Assembly: GCA_934647195.1 (NCBI GenBank)
Contig: CAKUFD010000004.1
Span: 1 to 64,000 of the forward strand
Origin: an uncultured Collinsella sp.
Lineage (GTDB): Bacteria; Actinomycetota; Coriobacteriia; Coriobacteriales; Coriobacteriaceae
Length of the DNA: 64,000 bases
Direction of reading: 5' to 3'
How positions within the stretch are numbered: the stretch's first letter is position 1; each line of letters starts with the position of its first letter. This document shows positions 19,697 through 44,837 of the stretch, piece by piece. The translations under genes were made by a program, and so were the position numbers. The notes below the pieces were generated by a model. It ran no database searches. It saw only the letters and a list, made by a program, of their open reading frames with translations, and was not told the origin of the DNA.

Positions 19697-20284
19697 CTAG
19701 GCGGCGTTGGTCTCGGTGGACTGGATGTAGTCGTAGCAGGTGTTGCCGTCCCCGTCGGTCAGGTACTTGGCCGTGAGGGCGCGGGCTGCAAGCTCTCCGA
19801 CCGCGAGCGTCAAATCGTCCAGCTCCGAGCACTGGAACAGCGGCACGACCTTGCGCCACTTGCGGTTGTTCTTCAGGAGCAGGTCGAGGACGACGACCCA
19901 CGTGCCGTTCGAGTTGCCGTTGTGCTTTACCGTGATGACGCCCGCCTTGTCGGTCACGTTCTCGTCGCCGTACATGAGCTTGAGCGTCATGGCCTTGATC
20001 TCGGCGAGGGTCAGCTGAGCCGACTCCACGCGGGAGGTCTGCGGGCTGTCCATCAGGTCGCCGTTCATATCGACGAGGTCCTCGGAATCGCTGTCGACCG
20101 TCTCGACGTAGCCGTCCTCAGAGATGAACCCGAGGCACTTGTAGGCGGTGGGCAGCGCCGTGCTGTAGTCGGTGGGGAGCGCGGTCCCCGTGGGGGCGAC
20201 GAAGATGTAGCCCCCGCGCACGCCCTTGGTGCTGGAGACGTTGTCCGTGCTGTTCGACGTGTACTCTTTGTTGGTTCCTGCCAT
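19697..20284 (-). CDS. major tail (tube) protein
   Basis: This 195-residue protein forms the repeating ring of the tail tube. It starts MAGTNKEYTSNSTDNVSSTK and contains GGYIFVAPTGTALPTDYSTA and LGFISEDGYVETVDSDSED, sequences typical of tail-tube proteins in actinobacterial siphoviruses. A good ribosome site precedes it. It lies between the tail-terminator gene and the tail chaperone, the canonical place. Strong expression would be expected. Confidence 0.9.
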   Translation of the reverse strand: MAGTNKEYTSNSTDNVSSTKGVRGGYIFVAPTGTALPTDYSTALPTAYKCLGFISEDGYVETVDSDSEDLVDMNGDLMDSPQTSRVESAQLTLAEIKAMTLKLMYGDENVTDKAGVITVKHNGNSNGTWVVVLDLLLKNNRKWRKVVPLFQCSELDDLTLAVGELAARALTAKYLTDGDGNTCYDYIQSTETNAA

Positions 20285-20294
20285 TTCCTTCTCC

Positions 20295-20639
20295 TTACTC
20301 GCAGATCGTCAGCTCTGCGTTCGTCTGGTATCTCTCCTGCCTCGAATCCGGGTCTGGCCATCGGTAGGTGCCGTCCGGGACGGCCCTGAAGACGTTCGGC
20401 TCCTCGGTCAGCCCGTAGATGGCGACCTCCACCAGCCCCGCGATCTCCGCCGCCCGCCTGCGGGTCTTGGCCCACGACTGGACGGCGAGCGAGCAGGTCT
20501 TCGGGTAAAGGCCGGTGCCGGTGCCCGTAAGCTCCACGGAGATGAACTCCTCCGGGCGCTTCTCGGGCACTTCGAGCACGGCCCTGATTCCGGTGGCATC
20601 CATAAGGCGCTTGGCCACCACGCGCTCAACGTCAATCAT
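20295..20639 (-). CDS. tail terminator / completion protein
   Basis: The 114-residue product starts MIDVERVVAKRLMDATGIRA at 20639, with ATGA overlap to the upstream stop. The pattern (N-terminal helix, then LEVPEKRPEEFISVELTGTG and later VEVAIYGLTEEPN) fits the tail-terminator fold seen in HK97 gp10/lambda U-like connector proteins, which caps the tube. Position just before the major tail protein supports this. Sequence similarity is too weak for certainty. Confidence 0.65.
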   Translation of the reverse strand: MIDVERVVAKRLMDATGIRAVLEVPEKRPEEFISVELTGTGTGLYPKTCSLAVQSWAKTRRRAAEIAGLVEVAIYGLTEEPNVFRAVPDGTYRWPDPDSRQERYQTNAELTICE

Positions 20640-20932
20640 TGCTTCCTCGAATCGAGCGCCGACTTGAGGCGGTTGTGGATAAGCTCGCTGCTGTAGGCGT
20701 GCGGGGTGCCCGTGGCCACGCCGCAGTAGTTCGCACGCTTGCCGCGAGACTTGAAGACACGGTAGCCGGTGCCAAGCTCGCCGGTGCCCTTGGTGAAGGT
20801 CGCGTTGCATTCGGCGGCGATGGCCCTAGCCGGTGCCTCGCACAGCGCCTGGACCGCGCCGCTGTCCATGATCTCGACGTATGCGGCCTTGTTGGACTTG
20901 TAGTCCTTCAGCCTCACGCTGCACTTAGCCAT
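20636..20932 (-). CDS. head-tail connector protein (HK97 gp10-like)
   Basis: The 98-residue protein has a helix-rich start with a basic patch (MAKCSVRLKDYKSNKAAYVE), the segment AIAAECNATFTKGTGELGTG and a C-terminal PHAYSSELIHNRLKSALDS. This composition matches the HK97 gp10 family of neck proteins. It overlaps its neighbours by eight and four bases in a compact connector operon. The role is to join the filled head to the tail. Confidence 0.65.
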   Translation of the reverse strand: MAKCSVRLKDYKSNKAAYVEIMDSGAVQALCEAPARAIAAECNATFTKGTGELGTGYRVFKSRGKRANYCGVATGTPHAYSSELIHNRLKSALDSRKQ

Positions 20933-21263
20933 CGGTGCGGGTCACCTCCACGGTTAGATTCCATGTGCCCGGCGTGTTCGCCTCGGTGTAGCGCTGCGGG
21001 TCTCCCACCACGCGGAAGCGCTCCCCGCGCACCTCCACCGCGCAGCCCTTCAGCTCGCCGGCGTAGGTCTTCGGGAAGCACAGCGTGTAGGCGACCGTCA
21101 CGCCTTCCGGGCGCGATGCGTCCAGGTCTGCGGTCGCGCCGGGGGCGACGACCACGCTCTCGACCTCTTCGCGGGCGTCCTCCCCGTAGGTCGGCTCGCC
21201 CAGCTCGTCCAGAACCCGCCCCGTGCGTATCACGGTCACGGCTTCGCCCTGAATCAGGTTCAT
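20925..21263 (-). CDS. head closure / head-tail joining protein
   Basis: The 112-residue product MNLIQGEAVTVIRTGRVLDE... is a small beta-barrel-like protein (AVEVRGERFRVVGDPQRYTE, GTWNLTVEVTRTDG), the usual look of SPP1 gp16-type head-closure proteins. It overlaps the upstream gene by four bases and the downstream gene by eight. Together with its neighbours it completes the neck. The assignment rests on gene order and beta pattern. Confidence 0.7.
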   Translation of the reverse strand: MNLIQGEAVTVIRTGRVLDELGEPTYGEDAREEVESVVVAPGATADLDASRPEGVTVAYTLCFPKTYAGELKGCAVEVRGERFRVVGDPQRYTEANTPGTWNLTVEVTRTDG

Positions 21264-21658
21264 TCCGTCACCTCGCCGCGCTCGATTGGGGTGAGGACGC
21301 GCATGCGCTGCACATCGAGGCCGAGGCGCTTCAGGTCCGACTTACCGAGGTACATCTCGCCGAGGGCCGAGCCGTAGGAGACGGAGGCGGTGTAGCCTCC
21401 GGCCCCCTGGCTGTACTGGGTCGCCCCGAGCATCGCGGCTGGCGCGGCAAGCACGCGGTTCACCACCATGCAGCACACGGCGCAAGCGCTGCGGTCGAAC
21501 GCCGCGTGCGCGCCCTCGGCATAGTCCTCGCCCCAGAAGCCCTCATAGGCAGAGAGCAGCAGGGCGGAGGCATCATCGAGCAGCGCCGTGGCGCGCCCCG
21601 AGTCCGCAGGCTCGCCGTAGCGGGCCGTGTAGTCCTCGATGGTGGCGAACGCGGTCAT
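21260..21658 (-). CDS. head-tail adaptor (Gp19/Gp15-like)
   Basis: The 132-residue protein begins MTAFATIEDYTARYGEPADS, matching the N-terminal LEDLxARYG-type motif of phage Gp19/Gp15/Gp42 adaptors that bind beneath the portal. A helical body (ASALLLSAYEGFWGEDYAEG) and VCCMVVNRVLAAPAAMLGAT follow. It ends with IERGEVTE, and its stop overlaps the next ATG. It is the first neck gene after the capsid and the 67-residue ORF. Confidence 0.75.
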   Translation of the reverse strand: MTAFATIEDYTARYGEPADSGRATALLDDASALLLSAYEGFWGEDYAEGAHAAFDRSACAVCCMVVNRVLAAPAAMLGATQYSQGAGGYTASVSYGSALGEMYLGKSDLKRLGLDVQRMRVLTPIERGEVTE

Positions 21659-21861
21659 TACTCCGCCCCCTCCTCGGCAAGCCCAGCGGCCACCAGCGCG
21701 TCAACGAGCGCGTTGTAGGCGGCCTGGAGCTGCGCCGTGGTCGGCTTGCCCTCCACCTTCGGCAGGGCGCCGAGCAGGGTGCCGTCCCCGCCGCCCACAG
21801 AGACGGTGGAGACGGCCTGCCCGGCAGGCGCCTTGCCCTTGGTGATGGTCACGCACTTCAT
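21658..21861 (-). CDS. 67-residue phage protein next to capsid
   Basis: The product MKCVTITKGKAPAGQAVSTV... has a short N-terminal beta segment, a Gly-rich middle and an Ala-rich C-terminal helix (AAYNALVDALVAAGLAEEGA). It lies between the major capsid protein and the head-tail adaptor, where small head-decoration or head-fibre proteins occur. GGGGGC precedes the ATG. The function is not known. Confidence 0.6.
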   Translation of the reverse strand: MKCVTITKGKAPAGQAVSTVSVGGGDGTLLGALPKVEGKPTTAQLQAAYNALVDALVAAGLAEEGAE

Positions 21862-21870
21862 GGCCGCCCC

Positions 21871-22827
21871 CTACGCCGCGACCGCAGCGGGCGTGATGAT
21901 GCCAGCCGGGTAGCGCTTGGTCTTGTTGGACTGGAGCGCGGTGACGGGGTTGGCGATCTGGAAGCCGGCGCGGAACACGCAGCGGAGCGCCACGCAATCC
22001 TGCTGCGCGAGGTTCAGTACCACCTTGCCGGTATCGTCGGTGATTACTGCCTGGTCGAGCAGCTTGAAGGTGATGTCCTTGCGGATGCCCACCACGAAGT
22101 TCGACCAATCGGCGAGGAGCATCACCGCCACGGACTCGTCCCAAGCGCCGTTGCTCACCTCGTTCAGCGGGTAGCCGTAGAGGTTGCCGGAGCCGGGGGT
22201 CTGCAGGTCGGGCGAGTAGACGGGGCGACCGTTTGAGTCGCGGAGCGCGGTGAGCTGCCAGTTGAGGCCGGGCTGGGCCGCGAAGCCGTTGACATTGAAG
22301 CCCTGCTTGGCCATCTTCTCCGCGAGGCTCGCCACGTCAACGCCGAGGTCTGTGCCGGTGCCCTGAGCAACGTAGTTGCCCTGCGCCTTGGCGGTGACGG
22401 CGATGCCGTCGGGGAAGGAGCTGGGCTTGTCGGTGCCGAAGAGGCACGACTGGTCGAACTTCAGGCCGACAGCTGCGGCGAGGCGCGGGCGAATCTCGCC
22501 CCAGAGGTCGATGCTTGTGTCCTCGATGATCGCCTCGGGGATGGGCACGATGGCCGCGATCTCCTCGGCGGTGATGGACAGGCCGGCCCACTTCTGCTTG
22601 GTGGTCTGCTTCAGGCCGGTGTCGCCGCCGACCCAGTAGGCGATGGGCAGGGAGTCGAGCACGGGCTGGGTGCGCGTGCGGGTGCTCATCTGAATCTGGC
22701 GGGCGCGGGTGAGCATGACGCTGGACTTGGCCGCGTCCTGGATCACCTCGGCGGCATACTCGGTGGGCAGGAGGCCACCGGTGCTGAGGTCATCAGCGGT
22801 AATCATCTGGTTGGTTACGGATGCCAT
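21871..22827 (-). CDS. major capsid protein, HK97 fold
   Basis: This 318-residue protein should form the icosahedral shell. The N-terminal MASVTNQMITADDLSTGGLL and the segments LPIAYWVGGDTGLKQTTKQK, WAGLSITAEEIAAIVPIPEA and LFGTDKPSSFPDGIAVTAKA are typical of HK97-type capsid proteins of phages from Gram-positive hosts. No N-terminal delta domain is present, consistent with the separate scaffold gene upstream. It lies between scaffold and neck genes, with a GGAG site before ATG 22827. Confidence 0.93.
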   Translation of the reverse strand: MASVTNQMITADDLSTGGLLPTEYAAEVIQDAAKSSVMLTRARQIQMSTRTRTQPVLDSLPIAYWVGGDTGLKQTTKQKWAGLSITAEEIAAIVPIPEAIIEDTSIDLWGEIRPRLAAAVGLKFDQSCLFGTDKPSSFPDGIAVTAKAQGNYVAQGTGTDLGVDVASLAEKMAKQGFNVNGFAAQPGLNWQLTALRDSNGRPVYSPDLQTPGSGNLYGYPLNEVSNGAWDESVAVMLLADWSNFVVGIRKDITFKLLDQAVITDDTGKVVLNLAQQDCVALRCVFRAGFQIANPVTALQSNKTKRYPAGIITPAAVAA

Positions 22828-22835
22828 TTCTTCTC

Positions 22836-23309
22836 CTATCTACGGTGCTTCATGAACTCTTCGCGGATGAAGTCGCGCTTCGGCGCGCTTCCCGGCGCGA
22901 ACGTCCCCGGTTTGTCCACAGTTGCTGCGGGCTTGGTCTTGAAGGCTTTGAGCAGCTTGTCCGCCCATGCCTCCATCTCTTCCTCGGTTTCGCCGACCAA
23001 GAGGTCGGCATCGACGCCCTTCTTATGCGCGACCTTGGCCTTGAGCTTGGCCAGCTCCTCGGCCCTCTCCTTCTCGCTCAGCTTGGATTCGAGGTCGGCG
23101 ATGCGCTCCTCGGCGGTCTTCTCCGCCTTGGCGCTCGCGACCTTGTTGGCCTTCGAACGGCCCTCCCACTTGCGCGATTCGGCGATGGCCTTCTCCTTGG
23201 CCTCCTTCTCCGCCTCGTAGAGCGCCTTGTAGTCGGGTTCTGCGGTGCCCTGCGGCTCTCCGCCCTCTACCTGCTGCGCCCCGCCATCGGCGGTCTGCCC
23301 GTCTGCCAT
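22836..23309 (-). CDS. capsid scaffold protein
   Basis: The 157-residue protein starts at ATG 23309 after GGAG. It is highly charged, with a long coiled coil from about residue 28 to 95 (DYKALYEAEKEAKEKAIAES, AEERIADLESKLSEKERAEE) and a basic C-terminal tail (PKRDFIREEFMKHRR), the part that would bind the capsid protein. Place and composition are those of phage scaffolds. A terminator and three hairpins lie upstream, so it may begin a separate transcript. Confidence 0.85.
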   Translation of the reverse strand: MADGQTADGGAQQVEGGEPQGTAEPDYKALYEAEKEAKEKAIAESRKWEGRSKANKVASAKAEKTAEERIADLESKLSEKERAEELAKLKAKVAHKKGVDADLLVGETEEEMEAWADKLLKAFKTKPAATVDKPGTFAPGSAPKRDFIREEFMKHRR

Positions 23310-23325
23310 GTCGCTGCTCCTTCCC

Positions 23326-23394
23326 GCGCCGTGCGGCGCGCCCCAAGGCCGTGCGGCCATTCCGGGGTCTGTGTGTATGTGTGCCGTGCGGCAC
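23326..23394. repeat. three GCCGTGCGGC-type hairpins upstream of scaffold gene
   Basis: Palindromic hairpins with the core gccgtgcggc occur at 23326-23339, 23347-23358 and 23381-23394, each with slightly different closing pairs that keep the stem. They fill the leader between the terminator at 23443 and the scaffold ribosome site. They could act in mRNA stability or as protein binding sites; this is inference. Confidence 0.5.
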
Positions 23395-23442
23395 GTCGTG
23401 AAGGAGTGTCCTATGCGCGTGAGATTTCGGGTTTTCGGCATG

Positions 23443-23466
23443 AAAAAAGCCGCCCTTTCGGGCGGC
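23443..23466 (-). terminator. terminator after the MuF-RelSpo / hydrolase genes
   Basis: A 7-bp G+C stem (gccgccc at 23449-23455, ggcgg arm to 23466) is followed on the minus strand by TTTTTT. It ends the transcript carrying the alarmone hydrolase 26 bases after its stop, separating it from the scaffold and capsid genes. Confidence 0.85.
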
Positions 23467-23491
23467 TCGGAAACCGTTCTATGGAATGCCT

Positions 23492-23932
23492 CTAGCGGGC
23501 CGCTTCGAGCACTGCGTATGCGTCTTCGTACTTGCCCCGCCTCAGCTTGTCGGCGAAGGTGATGCGCCCGTGGATGCGGCTCAAGTCCATGTTGTCGCGC
23601 AAGTCGGCCATCTTCACCGCGCGGGCGTCCGGGTCTTCGGCGACCTCGCGGATGTACGCCATGTACTCGTCGTACCTGAGGCCCCTGCCGTGGGTCAGCG
23701 CCTTGACGACTCTCACGACATCGGAACCCACCCCGGCAGCGAGCAGGTCCGCCTCCGTCGCGTCGGTGTCCTCCAAAACGTCGTGCAGGAGCGCCGCGCA
23801 CCTCCGAAGCTCGGTGTCGCAGCGCAGGGCAACCCTCATGGGGTGCTCAATGTAGGGCGCTCCGCCCTTGTCCACCTGCCCCGCGTGCGCCTCACTTGCC
23901 AACGACAGGCACAGTTCGATTCTCGATTGCAT
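23492..23932 (-). CDS. small HD-domain alarmone hydrolase (MESH1/SAH-like)
   Basis: The 146-residue protein is a stand-alone version of the RelA/SpoT hydrolase domain, which removes the 3' pyrophosphate from (p)ppGpp-type nucleotides using Mn2+. Seen in sequence: His16 in EAHAGQVDKGG, PYIEHP with His30, the HD pair at 50-51 in AALLHDVLEDT, and KMADLRDNMD at 107-116. These are the expected metal and substrate positions in order. I chose ATG 23932, where homology begins; it lies 41 bases inside the preceding 70-residue ORF. The upstream MuF gene ends in a synthetase-like domain, so this is the likely neutralising partner. A terminator follows directly. Confidence 0.85.
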   Translation of the reverse strand: MQSRIELCLSLASEAHAGQVDKGGAPYIEHPMRVALRCDTELRRCAALLHDVLEDTDATEADLLAAGVGSDVVRVVKALTHGRGLRYDEYMAYIREVAEDPDARAVKMADLRDNMDLSRIHGRITFADKLRRGKYEDAYAVLEAAR

Positions 23933-24104
23933 CCATGGCCTCCGATTCGGGCACCTCGTCCCACCAGCCGTTGCCGAGCTTGACTTTCCCCACCAGCTCA
24001 ACGTCGTAGACCCAATCCTCGGCAATCCAGTCCCACCGGTACATCAGGTGCCGCTCGTCCTCGCGGGCGACTGCCAACCTGCTCTCTTCAAGGTAATACC
24101 TCAT
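23892..24104 (-). CDS. 70-residue phage protein between MuF-RelSpo and hydrolase
   Basis: The product MRYYLEESRLAVAREDERHL... is rich in Trp and acidic residues (YRWDWIAEDWVYDVELVGKV, NGWWDEVPESEAMDAIENR). Its ATG overlaps the MuF stop as ATGA and its 3' end overlaps the hydrolase start by 41 bases, so all three genes are translationally coupled. The family is not recognised. It might be a neck or head component, a chaperone for the MuF effector domain, or a second immunity factor. Confidence 0.7.
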   Translation of the reverse strand: MRYYLEESRLAVAREDERHLMYRWDWIAEDWVYDVELVGKVKLGNGWWDEVPESEAMDAIENRTVPVVGK

Positions 24105-25447
24105 AGCCTGACCTTCTCGATGCCGGGAGGGATGGCGATGCCGCTTGCGTTGCTGGCCATCGTATCGGCCAGCTCGTCAAATCGCGCCTTACCATCCTCC
24201 GTGGACGTGTCGAGGACGCGCTGCTCCTCGTAGAGCCGGTGGTTCATTTCCTTTACCTCAAGACTCTCGGCTGTATGGAACTGAAGCTCGAACTCGTAAC
24301 CGTCCGGGGTCTTTACCTTGGTGTTGACGCCCCGGTAGGGCGCGGCCGCGTCGCCGAGGCTGTTCTTCACCTTGACCCAATCATACCCCAAGTCCTCCAG
24401 ATGCTCCCGGATCTCAAAGAAATCCGATGCCAGCGTGTCTGTGTCGCACTGGTAGGTGTAGCGCAACACGTCCGTGATGGCGTCCGCTGCCTCGGAAAGC
24501 CTCAAGCCCTTGTCCGCCGAATCGCTCAGAATCTTGCGTGCAAGGGAGCCCTCACCCTTGAGCCGGAAGTTCAGCCCTTCGAGGTGCCGCGTGTCGGATT
24601 CGAGCGATTGCAGGGCCTTGGTTACGTCCGTCTCCTGCCTGACCGCCTTGGCGATGGAACGCGCCGCAATCTCCGTGGCGCTCTGCTGCCGCGCAGCCTC
24701 CTTCGCCGCCTCTATCGCCTTGGCCGTGGGCGCTGCCCCCGAAAGCGCCTGCTTCGCCGCCTTACGCGCCTCCTCGGTCAAGCCCATGCCGTCGAGGTCT
24801 TGGTACGCGCCCCACCTCGCAAGCCACTCGTCGGGGTCGTACCCCTCGACCTCCATGCCGTCGAAACCGGGAATGACCTTGCAGCGGCAGTTCTCGTGGT
24901 AGTGGTTCCCCTCGCCCGCCATCTTTGCTGATTTGTAATAGAACCCATTGGAGGCGAGCATCGCGCAGAAAGTGCAGGTCTCGCCGCCCATGGGCACGCG
25001 GGCGTATCGCAGCCCGTCGCGCTTCGCGTTGATTCTCATGGTCTGGTTGGCACGGCGCTGGACCTGGTCCTTCGCCTTCTTGCCGCACGCCTCGGCGAAT
25101 CCCTCCGAGTCCCCGGCGAGCCACTTGCGCAGCTGGTAGCGCACCTCCCGCTCGACGTATCCGGACACGTCGGACGTGTCGATGAGGGCGCTTTTGACCC
25201 TTCTCCCAGCCGCCTCGGCCATGCCCTCGTAGAGTTCTGCGGCGATGCCCGATGCGCCGTCCCCGTAGGCCGACACCGCCGCGTCCACGGCCCCTATGGC
25301 GAACTCGCGCACCTGCTCCGCCGTGGCCTTGGGGAACTCGGCGAGGAAGGCCGACACGCGCCCGGATGCGTAGTCGTAGGCCGCGCCCTCCAAGGTCGCG
25401 AGGCGGCTGTCGTAGCTGCTAAGAAGCTTGCGCGTCAGCGTCGCCAT
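24101..25447 (-). CDS. MuF-type minor capsid protein with C-terminal RelA/SpoT-like synthetase domain
   Basis: The 448-residue protein combines two parts. Residues about 1-215 are a phage MuF/SPP1 gp7-like minor head protein with the Cys/His cluster CTFCAML (158-164) and NHYHENCRCKVIPG (181-194). After a helical linker, residues about 290-412 match RelA/SpoT-type pyrophosphokinases: FRLKGEGSLARKI (R295, K297, S301, K305), ITDVLRYTYQCD (D326, R329), then PYRGVNTKV and the E-x-Q motif in FELQFHT (E387, Q389). Such enzymes transfer pyrophosphate from ATP to a nucleotide. MuF proteins with toxin tails are known in temperate phages and may enter the host with DNA. The hydrolase gene downstream fits as protection. 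Synthetase activity is inferred. Confidence 0.8.
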   Translation of the reverse strand: MATLTRKLLSSYDSRLATLEGAAYDYASGRVSAFLAEFPKATAEQVREFAIGAVDAAVSAYGDGASGIAAELYEGMAEAAGRRVKSALIDTSDVSGYVEREVRYQLRKWLAGDSEGFAEACGKKAKDQVQRRANQTMRINAKRDGLRYARVPMGGETCTFCAMLASNGFYYKSAKMAGEGNHYHENCRCKVIPGFDGMEVEGYDPDEWLARWGAYQDLDGMGLTEEARKAAKQALSGAAPTAKAIEAAKEAARQQSATEIAARSIAKAVRQETDVTKALQSLESDTRHLEGLNFRLKGEGSLARKILSDSADKGLRLSEAADAITDVLRYTYQCDTDTLASDFFEIREHLEDLGYDWVKVKNSLGDAAAPYRGVNTKVKTPDGYEFELQFHTAESLEVKEMNHRLYEEQRVLDTSTEDGKARFDELADTMASNASGIAIPPGIEKVRL

Positions 25448-26837
25448 CAGAGGCCCCCATCATCTGCTCCACCATCTGCCGCGCCTCGGATCGCCGCGCG
25501 TCGCTGTTGATGCGCTGCATCTGCTCGTCGGTGTAGCCCAGCATCTCCAAGGCAACGTCCGAGGCGGCAATCTTCGGGAAAGCCTGCGCCTGCTTGAGCA
25601 TCGCGTCGCTCTGGGACACGACCGAGGGGTAGGCGGGGGACATGAAGCGCGCGTTCACGTTGTTCCCGGCGTCGCGCTCCGTGGCGAAGTCGGTGCCGTG
25701 GAGGACGGCCAAGGCCATGTATGCGACGTTTCGCAGGGCGTGCCCGTTCTCCGCGTTGAGGTTCTTCGCGTCAATCACAAGCGGCTCCAGGCTCGCGGCG
25801 ATGGCATCGCTAGAGGAGGGGTTGTCGTTCGAGACGCCGAAGAACGACACCGGCACGTCGGTAACGCTGCTCATCTGGCACGCGAGCGCCCTGAAGTACT
25901 CCGTGAGCGGTGCCATCTGCAGCTGCGAGGACTGCCAGACGGTCGGCACATCGCCGTCGGCGTCCTTCGTCACCTCGTTGATGGCGCCCATGGAGGCGCT
26001 GTACTTGTTCTGGTCGTTGGTGACGCGCTTGTCGGTACCGAGCAGCCACATCTGCGGGAGCGTGGCGGATTCCGATGCGACTTCCATGCGCGCCCGCTGC
26101 CTGATCGCATCGTCGGTGATGCTCATCACGGCGCGGGTGATGCGGGATGTGCCGAAGGGGCGCTCCAAGGTCGCGCCGTGGGCCATGGGCTCCATGAGGG
26201 CGCGGCCCATGGAGTGCTGACGGTACTCGGCAGTCCAGCCGGAGCCGCCGTTGCGAAGCACGATGATGCTGTCCTCAGTGAAGACGTTGACCACGGTGGG
26301 GATTCGGTCGTAGCCGTCGCTGGAAAGTTTTGATTCCGCCACAACAAGACCGGCCTTGATGGCCTTCTGCGCATCGTCCCAGATGGCGCTTGCGGAGGTG
26401 GCGGGATATGCGCTGATAACCGGGCCGTCCCCGCCGTCGGTGACGGTCCAGAAGCCGCAGCAGTGCTTCAGCTCGCATATGAGGTTCTTGCGGTAGAGCA
26501 GGTCGAGGCTGTTAGCCGTGTAGATGCCCCGAAGCTCCTCCGTGACCGCCTCGTCATCGCTCGTGAAGCCGTTGAGCACGCTGCGGTCGGCCAGCGCGTG
26601 GACCGCCTTGCGCGGCCAGTCGATGCGCGGGTCGATTTTCTGCGCGAGGCTTTGGGGCATGGCGATCCCCAGGTCCCGCACCCGGACGTGGCCGAGGTAG
26701 TACTTCTCCCTAAGCAAATTACGCCCGGTCTTCTGCCGCCACACCTGCATGAGCTTCACCGCCGTGTCGCGGTCCTCGTCGGCGAGGCCGTCCGCTCGTG
26801 AAATGCCCTCGACGATTTCCATCTCGATTTTCTCCAT
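25419..26837 (-). CDS. portal protein (SPP1 gp6-like)
   Basis: The 472-residue protein should form the dodecameric DNA gateway in the capsid vertex. It begins MEKIEMEIVEGISRADGLAD and has the portal landmarks LLREKYYLGHVRVRDLGIAM near residue 42, IDWPRKAVHALADRSVLNGF and, in the second half, SSVTDVPVSFFGVSNDNPSS, typical of actinobacterial siphovirus portals. It starts one base after the terminase stop (TAGATGG), with AGGAGG about 13 bases upstream, and overlaps the MuF gene by 29 bases. Confidence 0.92.
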   Translation of the reverse strand: MEKIEMEIVEGISRADGLADEDRDTAVKLMQVWRQKTGRNLLREKYYLGHVRVRDLGIAMPQSLAQKIDPRIDWPRKAVHALADRSVLNGFTSDDEAVTEELRGIYTANSLDLLYRKNLICELKHCCGFWTVTDGGDGPVISAYPATSASAIWDDAQKAIKAGLVVAESKLSSDGYDRIPTVVNVFTEDSIIVLRNGGSGWTAEYRQHSMGRALMEPMAHGATLERPFGTSRITRAVMSITDDAIRQRARMEVASESATLPQMWLLGTDKRVTNDQNKYSASMGAINEVTKDADGDVPTVWQSSQLQMAPLTEYFRALACQMSSVTDVPVSFFGVSNDNPSSSDAIAASLEPLVIDAKNLNAENGHALRNVAYMALAVLHGTDFATERDAGNNVNARFMSPAYPSVVSQSDAMLKQAQAFPKIAASDVALEMLGYTDEQMQRINSDARRSEARQMVEQMMGASDGDADAQAS

Positions 26838-28253
26838 CTAGAAGTTCGCCTCCTGTTGCCGTCTTGGTTCTCGCTTGGTCGTGCGGCCCGCGTACAGCGC
26901 ACCCGCCGCAGATTCAACCGGTATTGACATGCAGCCGTCACCATCGCCGAAGCCCCAACCGCCGTTGCCGCCGATATCGCGCTTCACGCTTCCAGTGGCG
27001 CTCGCGTCAAGTGCCGGTGACTCGATATGCGTCAACGTCCCCGCTTCAAGTTCGTCCTTGAACATCGCGGATGCGGCCTGCATGGTGGCCGGGGTGCCCG
27101 CCATGATCGCCTTGGCGGGGAAGTGCCCATCTTTGAGCCTCTGCACGAGCGTCTCCGTCTTGCCCTTGCCGTCGATGAACACGGCGGCGATCTCGTCGGC
27201 GTTGCGAATCAGCATGTCCGCTATCGGCCCGGTACTGGCGTCGGTGATGTCGTACAGCTCCACGTATGAGCCGCCGTTGCGCTCCGTCAGTGCCCACGAG
27301 ATGGCGGCCTTCTCCCCATCTGGGTCGAACTTCACGCCGAAGCTGAGCTTTCCGCCCTCCATGGGTTCCTCGCGCAGCGCCTTCGCCCAATCGTCCGGGT
27401 TCAATGCCAGCTTCGCGCCTGCGGTGGGTGCCCAGTAGCCCAGGCGCTCCCTTGCGAAGACCTCGGGCTGCATCTGGTTGCACTCGGATTCCACGGCCTT
27501 CACGCTGAGGACGGTGCCAAGGCTGGGGTTGTACTCGTACCAGCGGGCGCGGTCGTGCTTGTCACCCACTTCGGTAGCGCCCCACTCGACCCACGCCATG
27601 AGCGAATCGCCCTTGCGAATGTCGGTGCGGAGGCTCCTGAACACGGTGCCGGTGCATTTCGTGTCAGGCGGGGTGCCAAGGTAGATGGTCTGCGGGTTGT
27701 GCTTCGGCCCCGCGCTGATTGACGGCAGCAGGGCGGCCTGCTGCGAGTCGGTGAGCTCCTGCGCCTCGTCGAGGATGAGCACGTCGAACGACTTTCCGCG
27801 CCCGCCGGAGTCGGTGCGGGTGGTGAAGCGGATGAGTCCGCCGTTCTTCAGCACGATCGCCTGCTTGCCGTTGGTCTTGCGGACGTGCTTCAGCAGGTCG
27901 TGCAGTTCGTCGTTCTCCTCGTCCTCGAAGATGGCGGAGAGCTCCTGGAACATCTCGTCCGAGGTGTCCCCGTGGTGGCACGTGTATAGGATTTTCTCGC
28001 CGTTCAGCGCGCCGTAGAGGCAGCGGGCGCGCACGATGAAGCTCTTGCCGTTCTGGCGGGGGATGGAGATTCCCACCTCGGGCGCCGCGAACTTGTCGTG
28101 GCTGTCGCGGGCGAGCATCACATCCAGCAGGTGCGGTTGCCAGGGCATAGGCTCGCCGAAGTAAAGGGCGGCAAGCTCAGCGGCCATCGCGCCGTCACCG
28201 GTCAAGTCCTCCGGGATGTTCGCCTCGTATGTTGGCGTCTGGTTCGGCTCCAC
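26838..28253 (-). CDS. terminase large subunit
   Basis: This 471-residue motor packages DNA and cuts concatemers. The ATPase domain has an atypical Walker A SIPRQNGKS (63-71) and Walker B DVLILDEAQE (157-166), both usual for HK97-like and P27-associated large terminases. The nuclease half contains GVKFDPDGEKAAISWALTER and IADMLIRNADEIAAVFIDGK with acidic metal ligands. The GTG start at 28253 overlaps the TAG of the small subunit by one base. The gene is full length. Confidence 0.95.
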   Translation of the reverse strand: MEPNQTPTYEANIPEDLTGDGAMAAELAALYFGEPMPWQPHLLDVMLARDSHDKFAAPEVGISIPRQNGKSFIVRARCLYGALNGEKILYTCHHGDTSDEMFQELSAIFEDEENDELHDLLKHVRKTNGKQAIVLKNGGLIRFTTRTDSGGRGKSFDVLILDEAQELTDSQQAALLPSISAGPKHNPQTIYLGTPPDTKCTGTVFRSLRTDIRKGDSLMAWVEWGATEVGDKHDRARWYEYNPSLGTVLSVKAVESECNQMQPEVFARERLGYWAPTAGAKLALNPDDWAKALREEPMEGGKLSFGVKFDPDGEKAAISWALTERNGGSYVELYDITDASTGPIADMLIRNADEIAAVFIDGKGKTETLVQRLKDGHFPAKAIMAGTPATMQAASAMFKDELEAGTLTHIESPALDASATGSVKRDIGGNGGWGFGDGDGCMSIPVESAAGALYAGRTTKREPRRQQEANF

Positions 28254-28696
28254 TAGGCATCAGCCGCCTTGCGCTCCTTCTCGGCGCGGTCGCTGAACAT
28301 CAGCGTCAGGAACTCCGCCTTCGCGCCGTCGCGCTTTGGTCTGGACTCCGCGCCCATGCGGCTCCTGGCCGCAGGGGTCAGTCCGAGGGCGTCCGAGAGG
28401 GCGCGAATCTCGGCCGTGGCCTCCTTCAGCACCGCGAGGGCGGGGGACTTGCGCACCATGAACGGCGCCTTCCCGCTCGCGTCGGTGAAGGGCTTCAGGG
28501 CGATGGGGTCGAATATCGCCATCTTCCCGTTGTGGGTCATCTGCCGCTGGGCCTCCATGGCCACGGCGTGCCAGAAGCACAGCAGCCGCAGGGCGGGCAC
28601 GTCCTGCTCCGTGAATCGGCTGTCATCGGCCACCAGCTCGGACCATATCGCGGCCTGGGCTGCGTCCTGCGCTATGTCCTGCGGAATCTCTACCAT
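28253..28696 (-). CDS. terminase small subunit (P27-like)
   Basis: The 147-residue protein starts MVEIPQDIAQDAAQAAIWSE at 28696 with AAGGAGG upstream. Helical stretches with FTEQDVPALRLLCFWHAVAM and SPALAVLKEATAEIRALSDA, followed by GLTPAARSRMG, are the conserved pattern of P27-family small terminases, which recognise the packaging site. Its ribosome site lies in a small palindrome (CCTCCTGAAGGAGG) that could limit translation. The non-coding stretch upstream is a candidate cos site. Confidence 0.88.
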   Translation of the reverse strand: MVEIPQDIAQDAAQAAIWSELVADDSRFTEQDVPALRLLCFWHAVAMEAQRQMTHNGKMAIFDPIALKPFTDASGKAPFMVRKSPALAVLKEATAEIRALSDALGLTPAARSRMGAESRPKRDGAKAEFLTLMFSDRAEKERKAADA

Positions 28697-39843: not shown

Positions 39844-40482
39844 ATGAGCATCGGTTCAAACATAAGACGCATCAGGGTTGCTCGCGACTTGACTCAGGAG
39901 GAGTTTGGCAAGATTGCTGGCGTCTCGGCGATGGCAGTATCTCAGTGGGAGAACGATCGAGCTGTGCCACGCATGGGCGCGGTCCAGGCCATCGCTGACC
40001 ATTTCGGTTTGAATAAAGGCGAAATCATAGATGATGAGCCGACCGACCTGCCCGACGGCGCCATGCCCGTGGTCCCGTCCTCCGCGACCGTCCCGCTGCT
40101 CGCCATCGGCCGCGTCCACGCCGGGGCCATGACGGACGAGGAGGAGGTCGCGCACCGCGTCGAGGTCCCCGCCTCGGTGTGCGAGAACCACCCGCGCGCC
40201 TTCGCGCTGGAGGTCGAGGGGGACTGCATGGACCGCGTCATACCGGAGGGCAGCCACGTGCTGGTCGACCCGGACCGCGAGCCGGGCAACGGCTCCATCG
40301 CGGTGGTCGAGACCGAGGCGTACCGCGCGGTCATGCGCCGCTGGTACCGGGGGAGCAGCACGCTGATGCTCACGGCCGACAGCCACGCCGAGCAGGAGGA
40401 CATGGTCTTCGGGCCGGAGGACGGCCCCGTGCGCGTCGTCGGCACGGTGGTGTGGTGGCAGGCCCCGGCGGAGATGGAGTAG
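39844..40482 (+). CDS. CI-like phage repressor, XRE HTH plus S24 domain lacking Ser-Lys dyad
   Basis: The 212-residue repressor keeps the prophage silent. The N-terminal HTH is [20 protein letters not shown] + [20 protein letters not shown]. The C-terminal LexA/CI-like domain has the cleavage-type dipeptide in GRVHAGAM (A93-G94). The nucleophile motif, normally GDSM, reads EGDCMDR (Cys128), and the lysine region, normally VKR, reads AVMRRW (Met164). The normal self-cleavage dyad is therefore missing, so RecA-stimulated cleavage is doubtful. The first part of the gene is richer in A+T than the second. It starts an operon with the DUF3800 gene. Confidence 0.85.
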
Positions 40483-40487
40483 AGGAT

Positions 40488-41246
40488 ATGAGACAGATTG
40501 ACTGGGCGAGCGTCGAGGAGTTCCCTCCCGCTTCATGGAATGAATCGCACCGCAGGGTCCAGAACGTGTATTGCGATGAGAGCAGGGTCACCTCAGACCG
40601 CAGTGATGAGTTCATGGTCGTCGGGGCGGTCATGTGCCCCGCCGATAAGAAGGCAGATGTGGTCAGGAGGCTCGACGGGCTACGGTTGCTTTATAACGTC
40701 CACGGCGAGTTCGGCTGGAAGACGGTGTGTAAATCGAGGCTTTCGTTCTTTGAGGCTATCGTCGATATGTTCTTCAGTGACCCTGATCTGAAGTTTCGCT
40801 GCGTTGTGGTAAGCAGAACCAGGACCGACTTTGAAGATGACGAGGAGCGGTTTCAGAAAATCTATTATCAGGTTTTCGCCAGATGGCTTGATGCCCAGGG
40901 CGAGTATCGGGTGTTCTTGGACTACAGGGTGGACAGGCGTGACAGGGTTCGCACCCTGAGGCGATGCCTGATAAATACCCGGCAATTCGGTAATGCCGTG
41001 AAGTTCGTTGAGGAGGTCGAGTCGAAGGAGTGCGACTTGGTGCAGGTTGCCGACCTCCTTATGGGGGCCGTCGGCTACGCTTGGAACGGCAGGGACGATA
41101 TGGAGGGCGCAAGTGAGGCGAAACGGGCTGTATGTAGGGCGATGTGCTCAAATCTTGGTATCCGTTCGCTTGGGCATTACGCGACCGGCCCCGGCGAGCC
41201 AAAGTTTAACGTCTTCCACTTTCTCGGCAGGAACAACATGTGGTGA
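40488..41246 (+). CDS. DUF3800 protein, putative RNase H-like nuclease
   Basis: The 252-residue protein starts [20 protein letters not shown] at 40488, six bases after the repressor stop. It has [20 protein letters not shown] (the D-E-S motif), later [20 protein letters not shown] and [20 protein letters not shown], the three conserved acidic blocks of DUF3800, which has an RNase H-like fold. Such genes often sit beside phage repressors. Its expression in the lysogen suggests a superinfection or defence role, which is inference. The stop overlaps the next start (TGATG). Confidence 0.78.
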
Positions 41247-42960: not shown

Positions 42961-43002
42961 TCAAACCAACCGAATACACGGAAGGCAAGGTGATTGTACA
43001 TC

Positions 43003-44115
43003 ATGGCGGTCCGGAAGCTGAAGAGCGGCAAGTGGGCGGCCGACGTCACGGTCGGCGTCAAGTGGGACGGATCGCGCGACAGGCGCGTGGAGACGTACCC
43101 GACCAAGGGGCAGGCCCGCAAGGCGGAGACCCGCCTGCTCATGGAGAAGGAGCGACTGCGCGGGCGCGTCACGGCGCGCATCACGCTGGCGGAGTTCGTC
43201 GACGAGGTGTACTGGCCCCAGAAGGCGGGCCTGCGCGCGAACACGCGGCAGGGCTACGAGCGCGACCTGAGGCTGCGCATCCTGCCCGCGCTGGGCAACA
43301 TGGAGATCGAGCAGATAAACAAGCTGAACATACAGCGCATGATATCGGTGTGCCCCACGCGCAAGACGGCGACCAACGCCCGCGAGACGCTGTCCTCGGT
43401 GCTGGGGTGCGCCGTCGAGATGGGCATGATTCCCGTGAACCCCGCGTCGTTCCGCTACACGTACCCCGGCGACGGCGCGGCCGACCCCGAGCGCGGCGGC
43501 GTGTGGCTCACCACCTTCGCCGAGCACATGCGCCTGCTGGGCCTCCTGCGCGAGACGCAGCCGGGCTCGTGCGTCGAGCGCATCTGCGTGATCGGGCTGT
43601 GCGAGGGGCTGCGCAAGGGCGAGGTGCTCGCCCTGCGCTGGGAGGACGTCGACCTCGCGCGGCGCGAGCTCACGGTGCGCGGGACCTACACCCAGGGCAT
43701 CGGCGGCGCCCACGAGACCGGCCCGAAGAACCGCAACGCCCGGCGCACCATCCCGCTGCGCGCCTACGCGGCGGAGCGCATGGCGGCGTGGGGGCCAGGC
43801 GAGGGGCCGATCGTCTCCGGGACGGGCGGCGGGCTGCTGAGCCCCGTCACGGCGGGGGAGCGCATGCGCCGCTTCACGGCGGGGAGCTACCCCGACGGGG
43901 AGCCGCTGCCGCGCGTGACCATGGCGAGCCTGCGCCACAGCTTCGCGACGGCGTGCGTGAACGAGGGCATGGAGGTCTCCAAGCTGTCGCGCATCATGGG
44001 GCACGCGGACATCAAGACCACGATGCGCTACTACGTGCGCCAGAAGCTCGGCGACCTCAAGGCGGCGGTCGACGCCATGGACGGTGCGCGCGATAAAACC
44101 GACAAGTCTTTATAA
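43003..44115 (+). CDS. int: tyrosine-recombinase integrase
   Basis: The 370-residue enzyme integrates the phage into tRNA-Ser. I chose ATG 43003 (AAGGTGA nine bases upstream; TTG 42994 is possible). The N-terminal arm-binding domain is MAVRKLKSGKWAADVTVGVK. A SAM-like core domain follows (TLAEFVDEVYWPQKAGLRAN). The catalytic domain has Arg in GLCEGLRKGEVLALR, Lys in the KNRNARRTIPL region, H-x-x-R in SLRHSFATAC, then GHADIKTTMRYYVR with the Tyr nucleophile. It reads toward attR 0.8 kb away. Confidence 0.95.
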   Translation: MAVRKLKSGKWAADVTVGVKWDGSRDRRVETYPTKGQARKAETRLLMEKERLRGRVTARITLAEFVDEVYWPQKAGLRANTRQGYERDLRLRILPALGNMEIEQINKLNIQRMISVCPTRKTATNARETLSSVLGCAVEMGMIPVNPASFRYTYPGDGAADPERGGVWLTTFAEHMRLLGLLRETQPGSCVERICVIGLCEGLRKGEVLALRWEDVDLARRELTVRGTYTQGIGGAHETGPKNRNARRTIPLRAYAAERMAAWGPGEGPIVSGTGGGLLSPVTAGERMRRFTAGSYPDGEPLPRVTMASLRHSFATACVNEGMEVSKLSRIMGHADIKTTMRYYVRQKLGDLKAAVDAMDGARDKTDKSL

Positions 44116-44169: not shown

Positions 44170-44358
44170 ATGCCCACGGAACAGGAAGTCAGGCACGTGC
44201 TCAAGCGCCTGAAAAAGGAGGGATGGGAGCTCGAGAGCGGAAAGGGGAGCCACGTGGTCGCCAGGAAAGACGGCAAGATGGTGACGGTACCCACTGCAAA
44301 GCGCGAGATACCCATCGGGACGTACAGGAACATAGCCAAGGGCGCGGGCTGGAAGTAG
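44170..44358 (+). CDS. hicA: HicA toxin (mRNA interferase)
   Basis: The 62-residue toxin cleaves mRNA. It has the double-stranded RNA-binding-like fold, the catalytic His in GKGSHVVARKDGKMVTVP, and EIPIGTYRNIAKGAGW at the C-terminus, the family signature. The ribosome site GGGAGG lies before the ATG. HicB follows 29 bases later. It is full length with no missing residue. Its place between int and attR suggests it stabilises the prophage. Confidence 0.95.
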   Translation: MPTEQEVRHVLKRLKKEGWELESGKGSHVVARKDGKMVTVPTAKREIPIGTYRNIAKGAGWK

Positions 44359-44387
44359 GCCCGCCCCGAAAGGGGCATCGAACAGAT

Positions 44388-44837
44388 ATGGGAAAGTACA
44401 TCTACCAGGTGCTGCTGACGCCCGAGGAAGATGGCGGGTACAGCGTCGAGGTCCCGGACCTGCCCGGGTGCTTCACCTACGGGGACACCTACGAGGAGGC
44501 CGCGCTCATGGCGGCTGACGCGGCGCGGACCTATGTCGCGTCGCTCCTGAAGCACGGCGACGAGGTTCCCGCACCGACCGTGCGCGACGCGGGCGGCCAG
44601 ACCCTCATGGTGTTCTTCGAGGCGGAGGAGAGCTACATCGTGGACGGCGAAACGGTCTCGGCCGCCAAGGCGTCCCGCATGCTCGGGGTGAGCGCCGGGC
44701 GCGTGACGCACATGCTCGACTCGGGCATCCTGGACGGGTTTCGCAGGGGCCGCAGGACGTACGTCTCCGTGAAGTCCATCGAGAAAAGGCTGGCATCCAA
44801 CCCCGGCGCAGGGAGGCCCAAGGCGGCCGTCGCATAG
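44388..44837 (+). CDS. hicB: HicB antitoxin
   Basis: The 149-residue antitoxin starts MGKYIYQVLLTPEEDGGYSV. The degenerate RNase H-like HicB fold includes VEVPDLPGCFTYGDTYEEAA. The C-terminal DNA-binding part is an excisionase/MerR-type HTH (AAKASRMLGVSAGRVTHMLD, GFRRGRRTYVSVKSIEKRL) rather than the more common ribbon-helix-helix. It binds HicA and probably represses the promoter at 44104-44151. Confidence 0.92.
   Translation: MGKYIYQVLLTPEEDGGYSVEVPDLPGCFTYGDTYEEAALMAADAARTYVASLLKHGDEVPAPTVRDAGGQTLMVFFEAEESYIVDGETVSAAKASRMLGVSAGRVTHMLDSGILDGFRRGRRTYVSVKSIEKRLASNPGAGRPKAAVA

Follow-up and report, generated by a model that had tools for sequence, protein, structure and literature searches.

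What does a RelA/SpoT-type synthetase do at the end of a phage head protein, and what are the small genes that follow it for? The question is raised by positions 23492 to 25447 of a 64,000-nucleotide stretch of DNA from an uncultured Collinsella sp. (contig CAKUFD010000004.1, positions 1 to 64,000), hereafter the window. An earlier note, made from the sequence alone, had read these positions as a phage MuF protein with a RelA/SpoT-like C-terminus paired with a 146-residue HD hydrolase, and knew of no described pair of this kind. Such a system is in fact already published as Apk2-IapK-Aph1 (PMC12226406; also the available passages of PMC11699363), and the proposed pair is incomplete as an IapK-like gene at 23892-24104 had been overlooked. 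Because the three genes match those of the published system in homology and order, we consider with a probability of about 0.82 that the cassette is an Apk2-IapK-Aph1 toxin-immunity module, that is, a predicted (p)ppApp toxin carried in the phage head together with two putative protecting genes. The cassette comprises the following features:

24101..25447, minus strand: MuF-like head protein with RelA/SpoT-type synthetase (Apk2-like toxin), 448 amino acids (open reading frame (ORF); Pfam VG15; C-terminal homology to phage MuF toxins)
24812..25393, minus strand: VG15 / actinobacteriophage MuF-like minor capsid domain, the N-terminal carrier (Pfam VG15 match; actinobacterial phage relatives)
24101..24604, minus strand: C-terminal synthetase (Apk2tox-like) domain (motifs, homology, predicted fold)
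23892..24104, minus strand: IapK/Tis1-like immunity protein, 70 amino acids, predicted active-site blocker (profile homology)
23492..23932, minus strand: HD hydrolase of Aph1 type, 146 amino acids, predicted (p)ppApp 3'-pyrophosphohydrolase (7smg match, D-K motif, phage gene order)
23447..23468, minus strand: intrinsic-terminator-like hairpin, end of cassette

Apk2 consists of a MuF N-terminus and a C-terminal (p)ppApp synthetase and is toxic in E. coli. In prophages of S. pneumoniae, M. haemolytica and P. multocida, apk2 is followed by iapK, encoding a binder of the toxin, and aph1, encoding a hydrolase of its product, and (p)ppApp synthesis in vitro was shown for the S. pneumoniae and M. haemolytica enzymes (PMC12226406). 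The same paper cites 89 Apk2 homologues across phyla, Actinomycetota among them, and leaves open what (p)ppApp toxins carried by phages do physiologically. Fusions of MuF with RelA/SpoT domains were noted in 2012 and 2017 (PMC3482391, PMC5512222), and a B. caccae Apk2 is reportedly bound at its active site by BcTis1 (PMC11699363).

The synthetase domain of the window carries the motifs R-x-K...S...RK, DVLRYT, YRGVN and ELQFHT, including the adenosine-type signatures of Syn2 (RYT) and Syn3 (GxN, here GVN), and the catalytic residues are conserved across 33 aligned sequences. Relatives of the domain are found in 42 phage records, all from phages of Streptococcus, Pasteurella, Mannheimia, Haemophilus or Aggregatibacter; the 40 listed share 32.7-43.5 % identity across 94-96 % of the domain. 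They include phages of all three species with a characterised Apk2, the homology being judged against phages of the same species and not against the characterised proteins themselves. Structure comparison gives the tail a RelA/SpoT-type synthetase fold, with SaEAS/SaSAS (8vx3) as the closest solved structure. Only one of the 33 scanned proteins was recognised by the Pfam RelA_SpoT model, and the PADLOC library gave no match for any of the three cassette proteins. In NCBIfam, the tail matched only parts of very long proteins of the XopAD/PRK09169 type, in their C-terminal regions and far below cut-offs; we read these matches as the shared synthetase domain. Taken together, the ORF, the kept motifs, the homology and the predicted fold confirm the earlier reading of the C-terminus and identify the domain, on sequence and model grounds, as a RelA/SpoT-fold synthetase homologous to Apk2tox.

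The best solved match of the HD protein is 7smg, entered in the PDB as '(p)ppApp hydrolase' (E 5.9e-27), followed by Lmo0812 (5.5e-11), with RelSeq at 1.7e-8; we take 7smg to originate from B. caccae. The HD residues are intact, as had been noted. The first HD motif, presumably base-contacting in RelA/SpoT homologue (RSH) hydrolases, reads D-K in 7smg and in 12 of 12 cassette hydrolases including that of the window (the motif of L028 was read by eye from the sequence), compared to R-K in RelSeq, SpoT and Lmo0812. The switch from R-K to D-K fits a changed nucleotide preference without proving it. It is likely that the protein is of the Aph1 type, predicted to hydrolyse (p)ppApp.

The gene between toxin and hydrolase matches an IapK profile with an E-value of 2e-9 (among 867 window entries), of 2e-8 in a leave-one-out test and of 1.8e-4 once its three nearest members are removed. 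With 14-38 % identity to 25 aligned relatives, its product would be, by profile, a divergent member of the IapK family. The structural match ranked first for its predicted model is Tis1, which confers immunity to the (p)ppApp toxin Tas1/Apk1, at a low Z of 4.4. The IapK-like alignment also matched PDB profiles of Kelch type (E down to 9e-7 over the whole chain) across 13-18 residues with no stretch passing alone; these matches, and weaker ones to annexin and kinase profiles, are taken as chance.

How constant is this gene order? Our survey comprises 89 loci (80 viral, 1 genome contig, 5 annotated phages, 2 Collinsella-genus genomes and the window), where the viral loci are the best 80 of 199 confirmed using an alignment query on viral contigs, and a single-sequence scan of genome contigs yielded 2 loci only. 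Collapsed at 85 % toxin-domain identity, they form 34 clusters, with 42 loci in the L016 cluster alone. Aph1 lies within 3.5 kb of the toxin in 12 clusters, the window included, and an IapK-like ORF stands between the two in all 12. Five loci (L003, L004, L089, L091, L097) end 569-2072 bases past the toxin so that a farther Aph1 could escape this count; for L003 and L004, wider stretches and whole genomes were searched as well. An IapK-like ORF is recognised in 27 clusters, again including the window. For this count, 26 of 30 candidate ORFs (the window's among them) passed E 1e-3 in leave-one-out; the four candidates excluded from the profile by eye (L037, L084, L089, L091) also failed this test. 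Four clusters (L029, L031, L055, L092) have no positional candidate, and a second ORF in L031 scored 1.7e-13, giving the total of 27. Judging from these counts, the hydrolase, the partner that the earlier note had singled out, seems to be less constant than the binding immunity gene. Among the five annotated phage regions, four have the same order of toxin, ORF of about 70 amino acids and HD gene (confirmed by profile), and the fifth, Aaphi23, has the small ORF without the HD gene. The Mannheimia phage record has a terminator annotated directly after the HD gene.

The N-terminal carrier matches Pfam VG15 over head-protein residues 19-212 (E 3.1e-50). Residues 1-240 have relatives in 157 phage records, of which at least 149 belong to actinobacterial phages, judged by organism name. 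Frequent annotations are MuF-like minor capsid protein and head/capsid maturation protease; others read hypothetical, and one from a Rhodococcus phage bears the label ADP-ribosyltransferase, MuF-like minor capsid protein. Membership of the MuF superfamily is judged by homology and by location directly after the portal gene (PMC5576092), and the window head protein does directly follow the portal. The same source includes a mycobacteriophage protein in its MuF4 family, counts RelA-like domains among MuF toxins and mentions detection of the MuF toxin of phage StB12 by proteomic analysis; packaging is thus supported in general.

From product and packaging to delivery and protection, we infer the following course of events. 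The synthetase domain would move a pyrophosphate group from ATP onto the 3'-OH of ATP or ADP, and the resulting (p)ppApp would drain the adenine nucleotides of the receiving cell. The VG15/MuF-like N-terminus would keep the toxin in the head, from which it would enter the recipient together with the phage DNA. In the producer, the acceptor site of the toxin is likely plugged by the IapK-like protein, and the Aph1-type HD protein likely reverts (p)ppApp to ATP or ADP. A case for immunity is easier to make for the producing cell than for a quiet lysogen because the immunity genes lie in the head-gene string without a promoter-like site: a simple sigma-70 scan found 0 such sites in the cassette region (0.7 expected by chance), which is weak evidence on lysogen protection.

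Several observations weigh against the Apk2-IapK-Aph1 identification. A profile of the five published-type phage small ORFs alone misses the 70-amino-acid ORF of the window, and its link to IapK passes through intermediates. The Tis1 match of its predicted model has a low Z, and Foldseek returns no match for this model at E 0.001 or better. The Pfam scan finds no PF04233 (MuF) match in the carrier; the position behind the portal and the annotation of homologues are MuF-like, and in Pfam terms the protein is VG15. Finally, the Syn4 pair of the window is FH compared to the YH quoted for Apk2. FH is found in 21 of the 34 toxin clusters, and Aph1 accompanies 7 of 13 YH and 5 of 21 FH clusters; the difference is not significant (Fisher p 0.14) and the idea that Syn4 tracks Aph1 was dropped.

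Since Syn4 reads FH and the dual-specific SaEAS shares the residues, the identity of the product is the weakest enzymatic step of the mechanism. As one alternative, the domain may resemble the exported SaEAS and be of mixed or guanosine type, so that (p)ppGpp would be the main toxic product or both products would be made, and the HD protein would be a general alarmone hydrolase. SaEAS/SaSAS is not only the nearest solved structure, it also has identical RYT/GxN/QFHT residues, and SaEAS prefers guanylate acceptors (PMC12691689). We nevertheless regard this alternative as unlikely: the nearest phage relatives of the domain are of a type that made only (p)ppApp in both cases assayed (PMC12226406), and the hydrolase is of the (p)ppApp type, its 7smg match standing 16 orders of magnitude above the next solved hydrolase. 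Both the homologous domains and the type of hydrolase point to (p)ppApp, which is therefore the most likely among the products offered by the earlier note.

Related Collinsella prophages bear on whether the tail is a toxin at all. The toxin domain is found in 3 of 65 genomes of the family; the nearest to the window among the genomes compared, G001, shares 21 % of the window's sampled words. Locus L021 of this genome, a Collinsella bouchesdurhonensis prophage (NZ_LT699743.1), is 96.3 % identical to window 23301-28601 and again 94.7 % identical across 20052-21639. The scaffold/capsid stretch in between (21640-23300) does not align, pointing to a recombination just past the cassette terminator. 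In another genome (G006, L002:1486-2781), a VG15 carrier lies between a similar portal and scaffold and is 60-92 % identical to that of the window in 25-residue blocks over residues 1-225. Past residue 225 identity falls to background, and the sequence there matches CdiA_C weakly (0.0095, under the cut-off). Neither an IapK-like ORF nor Aph1 is matched in the vicinity. Conversely, G012 and G031 have the toxin domain on a different MuF protein with an IapK-like ORF; P0007, a near-identical homologue of the G012 MuF protein, matches PF04233. No Aph1 was found near the toxin in these two genomes, where the sole genomic HD match is inside a 791-amino-acid frame, probably the host Rel. Because G006 combines a similar carrier with another tail, and G012 and G031 the same tail with another MuF protein, the conserved carrier with swapped tails and immunity genes is, judged from these comparisons, the pattern of an exchangeable toxin-immunity cassette.

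Alternatively, the tail may serve the structure or regulation of the head without being a toxin, and the genes downstream may be unrelated morons. MuF proteins are head components, and the literature passages available contained no demonstration of MuF toxin delivery. We give this explanation very little weight given the conserved catalytic residues and the G006 carrier, which lacks the tail, so that the head can do without it, and which lacks both immunity genes as well. The last possibility, that the domain pyrophosphorylates tRNA CCA ends as FaRel2, PhRel2 and CapRel do, is highly improbable, and no test favours this suggestion of the earlier note. In the fold list, SaEAS and most small alarmone synthetase (SAS) enzymes rank above all three, with CapRel level with Tas1, and none of the three reaches E 0.01 in a sequence-profile search.

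The Apk2-like cassette is embedded in a prophage of which the following other features were recognised:

26838..28253, minus strand: terminase large subunit (phrog_9 2e-49)
25419..26837, minus strand: portal protein gene (phrog_104 4.6e-88)
22836..23320, minus strand: scaffold protein, start approximate, within the longer ORF 22836-23801 (phrog_9857 3.1e-16)
21871..22827, minus strand: major capsid protein (Pfam Phage_capsid 1.1e-33)
39844..40482, plus strand: CI-like repressor (HTH_3 + Peptidase_S24)
42994..44115, plus strand: tyrosine integrase (Pfam Phage_integrase 8.1e-16)

The order on the minus strand is terminase large subunit, portal, toxin, 70-amino-acid ORF, HD gene, hairpin, scaffold and major capsid. 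From the portal through the HD gene each neighbour pair overlaps, by 29 bases for portal and toxin, and the start of the 70-amino-acid ORF overlaps the toxin stop (ATGA). The overlapping string ending at a terminator before the scaffold, as described in the earlier note, is thus found. Since integrase and CI-like repressor genes are present, the phage is, by gene content, of the temperate type. Near the repressor/integrase end are also a DUF3800 protein (40179-41246, plus strand) and a HicB-like antitoxin with a helix-turn-helix (HTH) domain (44223-44837, plus strand).

Some homologues have other architectures. P0020 and P0027 join the synthetase domain to a head protease domain of the XkdF type (Peptidase_S78_2, PF14550; 4.3e-21 for P0020), and a single 690-amino-acid ORF (L092:2408-4480) combines a portal (PF04860, 9.8e-37) with the domain; neither an IapK-like ORF nor Aph1 was found downstream of the latter. 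The fusions to protease and portal merit separate attention. P0005, P0043 and P0064 carry the domain on proteins with a hydrophobic signal-like N-terminus resembling exported synthetases, P0043 with LysM and P0064 with PF00800; the P0005 domain is 62 % identical to that of the window. The domain-bearing head protein of Aaphi23 (L019:2072-4474) is unusually long at 800 amino acids, and 1 of 33 scanned proteins, possibly this one, has an Intein_splicing match (1.6e-6).

These results assign an Apk2-type cassette to a gut host resembling Collinsella and to a carrier of actinobacteriophage type, predict the identity and role of an overlooked 70-amino-acid gene, and show that head proteins of several kinds bear this catalytic domain. 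The related Collinsella-genus prophages with swapped tails would provide natural test pairs. It is quite possible, and we put it forward tentatively, that phages use the (p)ppApp synthetase as a general warhead, mounted on MuF1, MuF2 (Phage_min_cap2), VG15, XkdF-type protease or portal, with an IapK/Tis1 plug as the usual immunity and Aph1 optional, the carrier being whatever adjoins the DNA exit. In our literature search, no Apk2-type toxin was reported from Collinsella or as part of a VG15 protein, and the words VG15 and Collinsella are absent from the main text of PMC5576092 and PMC12691689.

How does the cassette compare to known systems? It belongs to a toxin family described in 2023-2025 and is not a new system. 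The Apk2-IapK-Aph1 module is reportedly also treated in Bartoli 2023 and Ahmad 2023, according to papers that cite them. Tas1/Apk1-Tis1 (6ox6) differs from the window in its PAAR/type VI secretion system (T6SS) delivery, and its toxin gives no single-sequence match at E 1 or better. SaEAS/SaSAS, closest in the solved structure of the catalytic domain, is Sec-exported, has no immunity genes and makes a dual product (PMC12691689). The Bxa toxin of Bacteroides stercoris shares the MuF carrier with both enzymatic and binding immunity, while the toxin itself is an ADP-ribosyltransferase (PMC11699363). B. caccae Apk2/Aph1/BcTis1 has the same two-layer immunity of hydrolase and active-site binder, with the hydrolase match of 5.9e-27, in another phage lineage and on another carrier. 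Apk2-IapK-Aph1 (PMC12226406) agrees with the window in the post-portal position among head genes, the toxin tail, the ORF of about 70 amino acids, the HD hydrolase and the catalytic motifs; the window differs in its VG15-type rather than PF04233 carrier, its divergent IapK-like protein, FH at Syn4 and a Collinsella-like host.
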